Shown here piece after piece: positions 16,098 to 29,524 of a stretch of 38,745 nucleotides of DNA. The translations under genes were made by a program, and so were the position numbers. Source of the DNA: Treponema sp. Lineage in GTDB: Bacteria; Spirochaetota; Spirochaetia; Treponematales; Breznakiellaceae. The notes under the pieces were generated by a model that worked only from the letters and a program-made list of their open reading frames with translations, had not been told where the DNA came from and searched no databases. Positions within the stretch are counted from its first letter, which is position 1. Every line of letters starts with the position of its first letter. Location: NCBI GenBank assembly GCA_031256635.1, contig JAIRQF010000122.1:1-38745 (forward strand), written 5' to 3'.

Positions 16098-16880
16098 ATG
16101 AAAAAGACAAAGAGACTTTTCGGGACAATCGCTTTTATTACGGCAATTGTATTCACTTTCTCAACCTGCGGCGGCAACGGCCCTACCGGCCCTTCGCAGT
16201 CAACGTACAATTGGGTTGACGATAACAATATTTATGCGCTGACTATTACCGATGACGGCGCAACAAGAGCAAACGTCACAGCAGGCAGCTACATATTAAA
16301 AATAATTTTATTTAGCGGAATTGTAAAAATCATTGAAGGAATTGCACAAAACGGCGGCGGCGGAAATATCATACTATCTAATTACGATAAGCCTGATATC
16401 TCAATAAATATTACCGGTAATACCGTAACAACAACCGCCGGTGTTATTTATGATGAATCAGGAAACACAGTATCGATGACTGGCGGAGGTCATGATTTGA
16501 TCAAGGGCGGCGGCGCAGATGTAGATGTTACCGGAAGATGGCAGATGAAAACAAGCCTTGATAATTTAGCAAAGGAAATGGCAGCTGAAAATGGTATGAC
16601 TGTACAAGAAACCAAAGCAATGCTTTCGATGTTTGGTGTAACTGATCCGGTAATACTCGCAGAAGTCGAATTTACCAGTGACAATAAGTGTTTAACATAC
16701 GATGTAGATAAAGACGGAACTGTAAGTAATACTCCAGATTCTACAGGCACTTATGCTGTGTCAGGAAAAACTGTAATAGCAGTTGATGAAGAAGGTACAA
16801 TGATTCTCACATCAAGCGGGAATAAGCTTACAGGAACTGCTCCAGACAGCGATATTCCTTTTGAATTAACAAGAAAATAA
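16098..16880 (+). CDS. Lipoprotein of unknown function
   Basis: The 260-aa protein has a lipoprotein signal ending FTFSTC (Cys24) and a Gly/Pro/Ser linker. The body is two beta-rich parts: residues about 36-140 with repeated Thr/Asn/Gly strands, and about 145-260 beginning DVTGRWQMKTSLDNLAKEMA and ending SGNKLTGTAPDSDIPFELTRK. The later part, with 'D.DGTVS..PDSTGTYAVSGKTVIAVDEEGTMILT', resembles repeated small lipoprotein domains in treponemes that report a threshold or 'TGTY' strand pattern. No catalytic residues are evident. AGGAG before the ATG fixes the start. A terminator follows directly, and a hairpin and heptamer repeat precede it, so expression may be variable. Confidence 0.75.
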   Translation: MKKTKRLFGTIAFITAIVFTFSTCGGNGPTGPSQSTYNWVDDNNIYALTITDDGATRANVTAGSYILKIILFSGIVKIIEGIAQNGGGGNIILSNYDKPDISINITGNTVTTTAGVIYDESGNTVSMTGGGHDLIKGGGADVDVTGRWQMKTSLDNLAKEMAAENGMTVQETKAMLSMFGVTDPVILAEVEFTSDNKCLTYDVDKDGTVSNTPDSTGTYAVSGKTVIAVDEEGTMILTSSGNKLTGTAPDSDIPFELTRK

Positions 16881-22760: not shown

Positions 22761-22789
22761 TTGACAGGTTTTTTTTATTGATATAGCAT
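22761..22789 (+). promoter_or_regulatory. Promoter of the LplBCA-type transporter operon
   Basis: A consensus -35 TTGACA (22761-22766) is 17 bases before TAGCAT (22784-22789, four of six matches). The ATG follows after six bases, with no ribosome binding site, so transcription could start at the initiation codon. Confidence 0.5.
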
Positions 22790-22795
22790 ATTTAT

Positions 22796-23722
22796 ATGCA
22801 GCCAAAAATAAGATCGAGTTTATTTTTAAAACGGCTAATCGATCAACGTTATTTGCTGCTTTTATCAATTCCTTTCATTATTTGGCTCGCAATTTTCAGG
22901 TATATTCCCCTCTTTGGATGGATCACGGCTTTTCAGGACTATAAACTGCATTTGGGCTGGTTTGGTTCCGCGTTTGTCGGATTTAAAAATTTCGCGGATT
23001 TTTTCAAACACAATCTCTTTCCTTCCGCCATGCAAAATACGCTAGCCATGAGCCTTATGATGCTGGTTTTAGGCACATTCATGGCCATCACTTTCGCCGT
23101 TCTTTTGAACGAACTGCGCTATCTTCCGTTTAAAAGGTTTACGCAGACTGTCTCATATCTTCCGCACTTTGTTTCATGGGTTGTTGTCGCAAATATTGTT
23201 ACCCAAATGCTCGCTATCTCAGGCCCAATTAATGAAATCCTTCTTGAGCTTGGTTTGATTAAAGATCCTACCAATGTAATGATAAAACCTGAGTATTTCT
23301 GGTGGGTAGTAGTATTATCTGATATATGGAAGGAAATGGGCTGGAACGCGATTATTTACCTTGCGGCAATGGCGGGAATTGATTCCCAGATTTATGAAGC
23401 GGCGGAAATTGACGGCGTTAACCGTTTTCAGAAAATTTGGTATGTTACGCTGCCTGGGATTCAGGGCACTATCGTAATTCTTCTTATTTTGAGCATTGGA
23501 AATATTATTAACATCGGTTTTGAAAGACAGTTCATGCTTCAGAACGCTGTTACTTTTCCCAAAGCGCTCACGCTGGATTATTTCGCGTACAGGTACGGCC
23601 TTACAATGTTCAGGTATTCGTTTGGTACTGCCATCGGTATATTTAAGTCAGTGATTAGTATAATTTTGCTTTTCCTTGCCAATTATTTGGCGAAGAGATC
23701 CGGTACAGGAAGGCTGTTCTAA
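22796..23722 (+). CDS. Sugar ABC transporter permease, LplB/YteP type
   Basis: The 308-aa protein has six predicted membrane helices. The opening LLLLSIPFIIWLAIFRYIPLFGWITAFQDYK is typical of LplB-like permeases, and the EAA loop EAAEIDGVNRFQKIWYVTLPGI (quoted as one motif, about residues 200-221) contacts an ATPase. With the next two genes and the GH105 it mirrors the yteP-ytcP-ytcQ-yteR set of Bacillus subtilis, which imports rhamnogalacturonan disaccharides. No ATPase is encoded nearby, as is usual for these importers, which share an MsmX-type ATPase. The start has no Shine-Dalgarno. Confidence 0.9.
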   Translation: MQPKIRSSLFLKRLIDQRYLLLLSIPFIIWLAIFRYIPLFGWITAFQDYKLHLGWFGSAFVGFKNFADFFKHNLFPSAMQNTLAMSLMMLVLGTFMAITFAVLLNELRYLPFKRFTQTVSYLPHFVSWVVVANIVTQMLAISGPINEILLELGLIKDPTNVMIKPEYFWWVVVLSDIWKEMGWNAIIYLAAMAGIDSQIYEAAEIDGVNRFQKIWYVTLPGIQGTIVILLILSIGNIINIGFERQFMLQNAVTFPKALTLDYFAYRYGLTMFRYSFGTAIGIFKSVISIILLFLANYLAKRSGTGRLF

Positions 23723-26332: not shown

Positions 26333-26360
26333 TCTTTAAGTTTTAATCAGAAACTTTTTA

Positions 26361-26391
26361 CCCGTCCTGTTTAACAGGGCGGGTTTTTTTT
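26361..26391 (+). terminator. Rho-independent terminator of the LplBCA-type operon
   Basis: CCCGTCCTGT (26361-26370) pairs with ACAGGGCGGG (26374-26383), with one G-T pair and a TTA loop, followed by eight T. Its tail touches the stop codon of the convergent GH105 gene. Confidence 0.94.
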
Positions 26392-27434
26392 CAGAGGTTA
26401 TACGTTTTTACTTCCGATGATAACGCCGTCGACATAAACGCAAGAGCGAGACCCTGGCCCCATCCCTGTACCCAGTCCTTGGGAATTTTCCGGTAACCTT
26501 CGCGATCATTCATAACCGCTGTGCCGCCTGATACATTTAATACCCGTCCGTCTTCTGTTATATTATTTAAAACCGCGTCAAACGCTTTTTGAACATATTT
26601 GGTATGAAGCGGATTGTTATTATTTAGCATCGCCGCTCCCAGTCCCGCTGTCGCCGATACTTCGCCGTACGATTCTTCGTCATCAAGAATTGTACGCCAC
26701 AGGCCTTCATCAGTTTGTAAATATTTTACGGCGCTTAACTGATCGCGAAGCGATGCGGTCATGCCCGCCCAGGCGGGATATAAATACGGTTTGGGAAGAA
26801 TTCTGTTTGCCCTGCTTACAGTATACGCCGCCCATGCGTTTGCGCGAGCCCAATAAAAGCCCGACATGTTATTTTTTTCGATATTATTATAACCGTGATA
26901 CCATAATCCGGTCGCGGGGTTTTGCAGATACCTGATATGCCATTCATATTGATTCAGCGCGTCTTTAATTAGGTTTTCATCTCCAAACTCAATGCCGCAT
27001 CTGAGCATAAGATAGGCTGCCATAAATAAAGTGTCAGCCCATGCCTGTTCCGGGAAATCGTTTTTTACGGATACAACATGCTGCAGTACATTATCCGCGA
27101 AACGGGCCGCTTTTGTCTGAAGCCAGTTCAAAGTATCTTTAAGCGGTTCAAGGTATTTTCCTGTTTTCTGATACAGGTATAAAAGAGTATGACCCATCGA
27201 GGCTGTATTGACCGTCGTATCTGGAAGTCCAAGCGTCAGATATTCATCCACCCACACTGAAAGTTTTTCTATGTAACTTTGATTTCCTGCAGCTTCAGCG
27301 GCGCGCGTTATACCGTAAAAACCGACTCCGCATGGCCAGTCCCATGTCAGATCCAATCGCAGCGTCTTTTCGGCTACAGCGTCCATCAATTTTTTTATTT
27401 TTTCTTCGTCGAATTTAAGTTTAATGTTGTTCAT
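26391..27434 (-). CDS. GH105 unsaturated rhamnogalacturonyl hydrolase (YteR-like)
   Basis: This enzyme of about 347 residues removes the 4,5-unsaturated galacturonic (or related uronic) acid left at chain ends by polysaccharide lyases. The (alpha/alpha)6-barrel signatures are WDWPCGVGFYGI, EQAWADTLFMAAYLMLR with catalytic Asp134 (counting from the chosen start), GFYWARANAWAAY and DWVQGWGQGLALAF. No signal peptide, so it is cytosolic. Two ATGs are possible (27443 and 27434). I prefer 27434, because TATAAT lies seven bases before it and the first ATG overlaps that box; neither has a Shine-Dalgarno. It diverges from the GH42 gene and converges on the transporter terminator. Confidence 0.9.
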   Translation of the reverse strand: MNNIKLKFDEEKIKKLMDAVAEKTLRLDLTWDWPCGVGFYGITRAAEAAGNQSYIEKLSVWVDEYLTLGLPDTTVNTASMGHTLLYLYQKTGKYLEPLKDTLNWLQTKAARFADNVLQHVVSVKNDFPEQAWADTLFMAAYLMLRCGIEFGDENLIKDALNQYEWHIRYLQNPATGLWYHGYNNIEKNNMSGFYWARANAWAAYTVSRANRILPKPYLYPAWAGMTASLRDQLSAVKYLQTDEGLWRTILDDEESYGEVSATAGLGAAMLNNNNPLHTKYVQKAFDAVLNNITEDGRVLNVSGGTAVMNDREGYRKIPKDWVQGWGQGLALAFMSTALSSEVKTYNL

Positions 27435-27441
27435 GTTGATC

Positions 27442-27456
27442 ATTATACTATATAAT
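27442..27456. promoter_or_regulatory. Back-to-back divergent -10 boxes forming a palindrome
   Basis: The 15 bases ATTATA-CTA-TATAAT give a perfect TATAAT on each strand: 27451-27456 for the GH42 gene and 27447-27442 for the GH105 gene. Each ends seven bases before its ATG. Weak -35 candidates are TTGTTC (27427-27432, plus) and GTTTCA (27470-27465, minus). Confidence 0.6.
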
Positions 27457-27463
27457 TCAATGT

Positions 27464-29524
27464 ATGAAACTGGCAGGAAAAGTCAGCAAGGTTTTATACG
27501 GAGGAGATTACAATCCCGAACAATGGCCAAGGGATATTTGGAAAGAAGATATGCGTCTTCTTACCTTTGCGGGCATTGATGTCCTGACAATAAATGTTTT
27601 CAGCTGGGCGATATTGCAGCCTTCCGAAGATGAGTACAACTTTTCCGTTCTGGATGACATTGTCGAAACAGTAAGCAAAGCCGGCATGAAGATATGTTTC
27701 GCGACAGGCACCGCGACTCATCCCGCGTGGATGGCGCGCAAGTATCCGGAGGTTTTACGTGTAAATACCGACGGTTCTAAACGCAAATTCGGTGACAGAC
27801 AGAATTCGTGTCCCAGCAGTAAAATATATCGGATGTATTCGGGCAGACTTGCGCATAAAATTGCCGAGCGTTACGGAAAACTGGAAAATATTATCGCCTG
27901 GCATATTTCAAACGAATACGGCGGTTATTGTTATTGCGATAATTGTCAGCATGCGTTCAGGGAGTGGCTCAAAAAAAGATATAAAACGATGGAAGCGCTT
28001 AACGCTGCCTGGAACACCGCGTTTTGGGGGCACACTTACCACGACTGGGAAGATATCGTCTCTCCGAGTTTTTTAGGCGGAGAATGGAGCCGTCAGCCCC
28101 GCGTTTCAGGTTCCTGTCAAATTCAATCGATTGATTACAGACGTTTTTATTCCGACATCCTTTTGGATTGCTTCCTTGAAGAAGCGAAAGTCTTAAAAGA
28201 AATTACACCCTATATTCCGGTAACAACCAATTTTATGGGGACTTTCTGGGATCTTGATTATTTTAAATGGGGAAAGCATATGGATTTTGTCTGCTGGGAC
28301 AATTATCCGTGGCCTGACTGCCCGCATACCCGCATTGCCATGAACCATGCCCTTATGCGCGGCTGCGGAGGCGGACAGCCGTTTTCCCTGATGGAACAAA
28401 CGCCGAGCGTTACAAACTGGCAGCCGTACAATTCACTTAAGCGGCCCGGTATCATGCGACTGTGGAGTTATCAGGCGCTGGCTCACGGCTCTGATACCGT
28501 AATGTTTTTCCAGATGCGCCGCTCGCGCGGCTGCTGTGAAAAATTTCACGGAGCGGTAATAGACCACTGCGGCCATGAGAACACGAGGGTATTCCGTGAG
28601 ACTGCTGCTCTTGGAGATGAACTTAAAAAACTGGGAGACTCATTTATTGACAGCCGTTTTAATTCAAAGGCGGCTGTGCTGTATGACTGGGATAACTGGT
28701 GGGCGACAACATTATCAGCGGGCCCGACACAGGACATGAATTATCCTGAAGAAGTTTACCGTTATTATGACGCGCTTGCGAAGCAAAATTATTCAGTTGA
28801 TATAATTGATGTTGACGCTCCTTTTGATAATTACAAAATACTCTTTGCTCCGGTTCTTTATATGATTAAACCCGGATACGCTGAAAAATTAAAAACATTT
28901 GTAAATAAAGGCGGCACGCTGATTACTACATATTTTTCCGGCATGACCGATGAGAACGACCTTGTTACTCAGGAAGGATATCCCGGTGAGCTGAGAGAGC
29001 TTTGCGGAATATGGGTCGAAGAAACCGACGCTCTGCTTCCCGGAAAAGATAATGGTTTTGTTATTAAAAAAGATCCTTTTAATCAAAACAGCGACAAAAG
29101 TATTATTGGCGCATGGAAAGCGGAACTTTTCTGCGATATTATTCACAGCGAAGGCGCTGAAATAATCGCAAACTATGAAAGCGATTTTTACGCCGGGACG
29201 CCTGCTCTCTGCCGTAATAAATTCGGTCAGGGACAGGTCTGGTATTTCGGCGCAAGGCCCGAGCAGGCTCTTCTGGATCGTTTTACGGTATTGATATGCG
29301 TTGAATGTGGGATTCTGCCTGTATTTCCGGCGCCGGAAGGAATCGAAGCAACCCGCCGCGTAAAGGATGGAAAAGAGTTTACCTTTGTATTGAATCATAA
29401 TAAAACCGCTGCGGAAATTGTAATTCCTGCCTCTTCGCGCGATCTTATAACTGATAAGGTATTTACAGCCAACGAACGTTATTCCCTTCCGGCAGCAGGA
29501 GTTTTAATTCTGGTAAAAAATTAG
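27464..29524 (+). CDS. GH42 beta-galactosidase / alpha-L-arabinopyranosidase
   Basis: The 686-aa cytosolic enzyme is glycoside hydrolase family 42. The TIM barrel begins LYGGDYNPEQWPRDIW; the acid/base is Glu151 in AWHISNEYGG and the nucleophile Glu311 in SLMEQTPS. Cys116, Cys156, Cys158 and Cys161 match the four zinc ligands of Thermus GH42 enzymes. A trimerisation domain (about 400-600) and C-terminal beta domain follow. Family members release beta-galactose, and some alpha-L-arabinopyranose. Being directly upstream of kinase-araA-araD makes an arabinose-releasing role plausible. There is no Shine-Dalgarno; TATAAT lies seven bases before the ATG. Confidence 0.93.
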   Translation: MKLAGKVSKVLYGGDYNPEQWPRDIWKEDMRLLTFAGIDVLTINVFSWAILQPSEDEYNFSVLDDIVETVSKAGMKICFATGTATHPAWMARKYPEVLRVNTDGSKRKFGDRQNSCPSSKIYRMYSGRLAHKIAERYGKLENIIAWHISNEYGGYCYCDNCQHAFREWLKKRYKTMEALNAAWNTAFWGHTYHDWEDIVSPSFLGGEWSRQPRVSGSCQIQSIDYRRFYSDILLDCFLEEAKVLKEITPYIPVTTNFMGTFWDLDYFKWGKHMDFVCWDNYPWPDCPHTRIAMNHALMRGCGGGQPFSLMEQTPSVTNWQPYNSLKRPGIMRLWSYQALAHGSDTVMFFQMRRSRGCCEKFHGAVIDHCGHENTRVFRETAALGDELKKLGDSFIDSRFNSKAAVLYDWDNWWATTLSAGPTQDMNYPEEVYRYYDALAKQNYSVDIIDVDAPFDNYKILFAPVLYMIKPGYAEKLKTFVNKGGTLITTYFSGMTDENDLVTQEGYPGELRELCGIWVEETDALLPGKDNGFVIKKDPFNQNSDKSIIGAWKAELFCDIIHSEGAEIIANYESDFYAGTPALCRNKFGQGQVWYFGARPEQALLDRFTVLICVECGILPVFPAPEGIEATRRVKDGKEFTFVLNHNKTAAEIVIPASSRDLITDKVFTANERYSLPAAGVLILVKN

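Follow-up and report, generated by a model that had tools for sequence, protein, structure and literature searches.

Back-to-back TATAAT hexamers as a probable two-way promoter of leaderless GH105 and GH42 genes in a Treponema genome

Divergent genes for a GH105 and a GH42 glycosidase start so close to each other in a Treponema genome that they raise the question of where their promoters lie and how their mRNAs are translated. We addressed this in a 38,745-nt stretch of contig JAIRQF010000122.1, which was analysed as a whole and is called the window below; the source genome is a draft of 2.48 Mb in 189 contigs and is 89% complete. The closest named relatives of the GH42 protein come from Treponema MAGs (identity up to 80%) that, from their isolate names, we take to be of termite-gut origin. 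The gap between the two genes measures 20 nt from the starts of the longest ORFs and 29 nt from the likely start codons (Table 1), and is the shortest of its kind in 1.0 Mb of the genome, which holds 94 divergent pairs. An earlier note on this DNA had described a palindrome that supplies one TATAAT to each strand, each of them 7 nt before an ATG, and this can be read directly at 27442-27456. At the level of sequence, a symmetric -10 arrangement is available to both strands. We propose that this core is probably a symmetric two-way sigma-70-type promoter and that both of its mRNAs would be leaderless.

Table 1. Features of the GH105/GH42 intergenic region and its surroundings (window coordinates).
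Feature	Position	Strand	Remarks
Symmetric core ATTATA-CTA-TATAAT, 15 bp (ATTATACTATATAAT)	27442..27456	both	two -10 hexamers 3 bp apart
-10 of putative GH42 promoter, TATAAT	27451..27456	+	ends 7 nt before ATG 27464
-10 of putative GH105 promoter, TATAAT	27442..27447	-	7 nt (GATCAAC) before ATG 27434
Weak -35-like TGTTCA	27428..27433	+	17 bp spacer; 3/6 matches to TTGACA
Weak -35-like GTTTCA	27465..27470	-	17 bp spacer; 3/6 matches
GH105 (Pfam Glyco_hydro_88), unsaturated-uronyl-hydrolase-like gene	26391..27434	-	PF07470, E = 9 × 10−73
GH42 beta-galactosidase-like gene	27464..29524	+	PF02449, E = 9 × 10−149; heads GH42-kinase-araA-aldolase run
GH42 start codon	27464..27466	+	GH42 ortholog starts align here; predicted transcription start within ~1-2 nt
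Likely GH105 start codon	27432..27434	-	ortholog MNNIKL begins here; predicted transcription start within ~1-2 nt
Alternative upstream GH105 ATG	27441..27443	-	overlaps -10; probably unused
Intrinsic-terminator-like GC-rich hairpin, T/A runs at flanks	26360..26384		between convergent SBP (transporter) and GH105 genes

The longest GH105 ORF opens at an ATG at 27443, inside its own -10. Because the ortholog in the congeneric genome G033 (89% identical protein) begins at the codon that aligns with 27434, the latter is likely the true start, and the spacing from -10 to ATG is therefore exactly 7 on both sides. An out-of-frame ATG lies at 27460-27462, 4 nt ahead of the GH42 start; a transcript beginning at this ATG could be translated in the wrong frame, and hence the exact +1 matters. 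Searches upstream of GH105 and GH42 found no Shine-Dalgarno (SD) sequence on either side, whereas SD-like stretches precede the kinase, araA, GH88, GH2 and SBP2 genes, in agreement with what had first been noticed for the first four of these. Both genes thereby have the makeup of TA-led leaderless genes, namely a -10-like hexamer about 5-9 nt before the start and no SD. The hairpin downstream of GH105 is probably a terminator for both strands, and since it separates off the upstream transporter operon, GH42 probably needs a promoter of its own.

Each -35-like box falls inside the opening codons of the gene on the other side, and its last two bases, CA, are the complement of part of that gene's start codon: TGTTCA overlaps the GH105 start and GTTTCA the GH42 start. 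On the + strand, TTGTTC at 27427-27432 is an alternative, with an 18-bp spacer. The weakness of both -35s (3/6) speaks against a two-way promoter. No second exact copy of the 15-mer exists in the window, where 0.15 matches are expected even at 2 mismatches, and the exact count in the 2.48 Mb genome is one. The motif TATAAT-N7-ATG occurs three times in the window compared to 0.58 expected, and the GH105/GH42 pair accounts for two of the three.

How common leaderless starts are in this genome was determined from 727 genes with starts, predicted by a simple script caller in 1.0 Mb of genome stretches. Among the 324 genes lacking an SD, an exact TATAAT was found 5-8 nt before the start in 20 cases, where 2.3 were expected from positions 12-60 (about ninefold, Poisson P = 7 × 10−13), and the genome-wide distribution of leaderless -10-to-start spacings peaks at 6 nt. 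The 403 SD genes have their -10 boxes about 25-35 nt upstream. In 68 leaderless candidates, TTGACA-like boxes (at least 4 matches) peak at a distance of 17 bp (18/68 versus 1-9 at other spacings), and such a sharp -35 optimum is as should be expected of real sigma-70 promoters. A Planococcus-group control, with only 25 genes lacking an SD, showed no TATAAT near starts. These patterns indicate that leaderless initiation is frequent in these treponemes, with consequences for how start codons are annotated in their genomes. At the locus itself, the sugar-transporter operon head at 22761-22798 reads TTGACA-17-TAGCAT-ATTTAT-ATG, with a perfect -35 and no SD, and three transcription units (GH105, GH42 and the transporter operon) look leaderless from their upstream regions. 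Elsewhere in the window, TATCAT-AAGCC-ATG at 2703-2716, before the 2714 ORF, is another leaderless-like start.

The arrangement had been thought undescribed in spirochaetes. Leaderless mRNAs as such are known there, as about 440 were found in Leptospira interrogans by dRNA-seq (PMC5243855), and of 18 spirochaete genomes, 6 were predicted to have leaderless genes, with a mean of 3.9% (PMC3160421); the symmetric back-to-back form, however, was not found described in the open-access literature.

The earlier note had also proposed aligning the region in related genomes. In that comparison, no genome other than the source genome showed GH105 and GH42 arranged in this way, but each gene has a leaderless-like counterpart elsewhere in the genus. 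In G033, GH105 is preceded by TGGACA-17-TAGAAT-GCCGTT-ATG, whose TAGAAT, 6 nt before the ATG, aligns with the GH105 -10 (27447-27442, - strand) of the window. In G020, GH42 is preceded by TTGCTT-17-TATAAT-TAAGCC-ATG. SD-led starts predominate among the GH42 orthologs of the genus, for example at three of the loci compared. Considering that in G033 GH105 directly faces the kinase-araA-aldolase operon, with GH42 missing from that spot, the promoter pair is, as judged from these genomes, a lineage-specific arrangement.

This lack of conservation, together with the weak -35s on both sides, is what one would expect if only one direction were real: the near-symmetry of TATAAT could by itself create a second -10 without a role, and the gene on that side would be transcribed from another site or hardly at all. 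We regard this as quite improbable, since in another species the ortholog of each gene carries a leaderless-like -10 of its own, hardly any intergenic room is left where a promoter could lie, and the probable terminator stands upstream. Leaderless initiation at both GH105 and GH42, as originally proposed, is well supported by the comparative evidence and the genome-wide TATAAT signature, with the 5' ends themselves standing as predictions.

We next consider how the core is placed with respect to genes. The source genome contains three ATTATA-N3-TATAAT sites, all three between divergent starts, and they occupy three of the five shortest divergent gaps in the 1.0-Mb sample. In 40 congeners, raw counts gave only weak enrichment (79 versus 64 for the reversed pattern); it is the position relative to divergent starts that is informative, not the raw count. 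When starts were required within 60 nt on both sides, 20 of 71 N3 sites in the genus lay between divergent starts, compared to 0 of 46 sites with other spacings (0-2 and 4-9; P = 2 × 10−5) and 4 of 47 reversed sites (P = 0.01), a control only modestly below N3. A smaller first sample had given 10/28 versus 5/27 for the reversed pattern (P = 0.23, not significant), and the larger numbers were obtained after loci and the 60-nt limit were added; all of these statistics rest on a simple gene caller, partly orthologous sites and mostly draft genomes. The 20 divergent sites represent 14 gene-pair families. Some of these pairs have SD-led starts on one side or on both, which makes the two-way core and leaderlessness two distinct features. 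One such family joins a cytidine deaminase to a conserved partner, with an N3 core in five species, and its cytidine deaminase side is mostly SD-led.

Dyad symmetry between two co-functional catabolic genes also brings to mind an operator, and regulators can bind such sites, as CsoR does over overlapping -10s (PMC5057107). That the palindrome is mainly the operator of a sugar-responsive regulator acting over both promoters is nevertheless highly improbable: there is no exact copy, and hence no shared palindrome, at the other operons of the locus; the sole 2-mismatch match in the window (16368-16382) lies away from sugar genes; and the same core stands between unrelated gene pairs, with arms that are exactly two -10 consensus hexamers. 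Separately, the exact 15-mer was considered as an operator used throughout the family and was rejected, as the genome contains it once and the centre is different in other cores.

We then extended the search to 200 genomes of the family, where ATTATA-N3-TATAAT-N5-8-ATG gave 62 matches compared to 12 for the reversed control; the nine other spacings together gave at least about 250. Counting double-sided sites only when both ORFs had at least 100 aa, we found eight double-sided leaderless families, six at N3, one at N4 and one at N1. Besides GH105/GH42 in the window, the N3 families comprise an amidohydrolase with a nuclease-like partner (L346-L350), a histidine kinase/membrane protein pair, an amylase-like/DUF protein pair, a 3-methyladenine-glycosylase-like/exonuclease-like pair and a sensor kinase/MlaE-like permease pair. 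The N4 family is a thioesterase/NUDIX pair (L369, L370), leaderless-like on both sides, in which the 4-bp core spacing is kept in two species. For families outside the window, these protein names are our own reading of the sequences and should be taken as presumptive. With the window excluded, five of seven families fall at one of ten spacings (binomial P = 1.8 × 10−4). Ten further double sites at the pattern level were discarded for having one ORF under 60 aa; L368 (154/51 aa) was left out of the count, and L375 (111/114 aa, N9) is ambiguous. In a search across spirochaetes, made at the pattern level, few double sites appeared outside the family. The recurrence of the module between other gene pairs in related bacteria suggests that it is no coincidence but a genuine two-way promoter that can be reused at different loci.

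The amidohydrolase/nuclease-like pair offers what we consider the strongest evidence that the module may be functional, and is the best place to test it. Five species belonging to a different genus have it; on either side of the core the starts stand 6-7 nt away (one of them a GTG), and 27-28 nt separate the two start codons. Across four aligned species, 12 of 12 arm bases are invariant, compared to one of three in the centre and two of six and none of six in the flanks to the ATGs; in the five-species pair the centres read tcg, ccg, ccc and cgc. Invariant arms around a variable centre fit two separate -10 elements.

This pair also bears on a more conventional organisation. In the window, the core contains other -10-like hexamers, TATACT on the + strand and TATAGT on the - strand, which could give 6-8 nt leaders. 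A bidirectional promoter of the usual kind would use overlapping TACTAT (+) and TATAGT (-), with starts 18 bp apart and 6-nt leaders. TATAGT has the better -35 (CTGCCA, 18 bp). In E. coli and Salmonella, a spacing of 18 bp is met with most often (PMC12825309, PMC10268837). A shared -10 of this 18-bp type does not fit the amidohydrolase pair, because the variable centre removes any good shared hexamer in its five species while the outer TATAAT arms stay invariant, and the genome-wide leaderless spacing peak at 6 nt also argues against it. We therefore consider a shared -10 unlikely at the GH105/GH42 locus.

Leaderless genes, in spirochaetes among others, and two-way promoters that block each other are each already known. 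Like the bidirectional promoters of Warman and Grainger, the core has a pseudo-symmetric -10 arrangement for both strands, lies between divergent genes and would make opposing polymerases exclusive. By the criteria of the 2023 and 2026 papers, that class has a shared or overlapping -10 and start sites 7-25 bp apart (PMC10268837), with an optimum of 18 and also 10 and 23 (PMC12825309, PMC10268837), whereas here two non-overlapping TATAATs stand 3 bp apart and the predicted starts 28-30 bp apart, outside that range. TA-led leaderless genes (Zheng 2011, PMC3160421; Leptospira, PMC5243855) likewise have a -10 about 5-8 nt before the start and no SD, but were described singly and not as a symmetric pair in one region of less than 30 bp. 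The csoR-cueA divergon of Bradyrhizobium (PMC5057107) combines overlapping opposite -10s, leaderless mRNA and proposed polymerase competition; there, however, one side was mapped leaderless, a 42-nt leader precedes the gene on the other, and the CsoR operator that covers the site is itself the palindrome. In Mycobacterium tuberculosis, both mRNAs of the adjacent divergent genes prpD/Rv1129c were mapped leaderless, though their start codons were reassigned to positions inside the annotated genes and a symmetric -10 core does not appear to be described (PMC3898074). A fixed 3-bp spacing with start codons less than 30 bp apart thus appears undescribed in the open-access literature.

Predicted from the DNA alone, start positions, promoter activity, exclusion and effects on expression would combine at the two-way promoter as follows. 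The TATAAT of each strand, with a -35 in the opposite gene's first codons 16-18 bp away, would set transcription to start at an AUG or 1-2 bases from it. Both the GH105 and the GH42 mRNA would be leaderless, with ribosomes starting on the 5'-terminal AUG without an SD, and the two genes would share one 29-bp control region. Polymerase would bind the core in either orientation but never in both at once, and initiation events would alternate between the two genes. The proposal that initiation is mutually exclusive holds in this geometric sense, as simultaneous occupancy is impossible, but exclusive expression was overstated: in E. coli, all five bidirectional promoters tested were too weak basally for competition, which appears only when one direction is strongly activated (PMC12825309). 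For this reason we stop short of concluding that one enzyme is made only when the other is not. At low activity both genes would be expressed independently, and only if one side were strongly activated would the other be repressed. If the starts are as predicted, this would be nearly as small as a divergent control region can be, with one polymerase site and no leaders, and would offer a natural, sequence-defined system for studying polymerase orientation choice and for asking whether spirochaete leaderless mRNAs translate efficiently.

More tentatively, and with somewhat less than even confidence, termite-gut treponemes might use a distinct promoter class of back-to-back TATAATs with a fixed 3-bp spacing and leaderless starts 6-8 nt away on each side. 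Less than 50 bp would then encode both promoters, both start codons (themselves less than 30 bp apart) and part of both proteins, with the complement of each start codon supplying the CA of the opposing -35. If a -35 ends in the CA of the opposing CAT (complementary to ATG), a spacer of 7+M+N would separate it from its -10, with M standing for the distance from -10 to ATG on the opposing side and N for the core spacing, and N = 3 with M = 6-8 would give 16-18 bp. Such a spacer is implied for 13 of the 16 sides of the eight double families, compared to 30% under uniform N. Once the CA is given, the -35 matches are little better than expected (3-5 of 6). This account of the 3-bp spacing follows from geometry and would leave the N3 preference of SD-led divergent pairs unexplained. 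One further observation concerns the amylase-like/DUF family, of which genome G022 carries two near-identical copies with the same core (L276 and L277, on C12 and C25); these may have arisen by recent duplication, or the assembly may contain a single locus two times.
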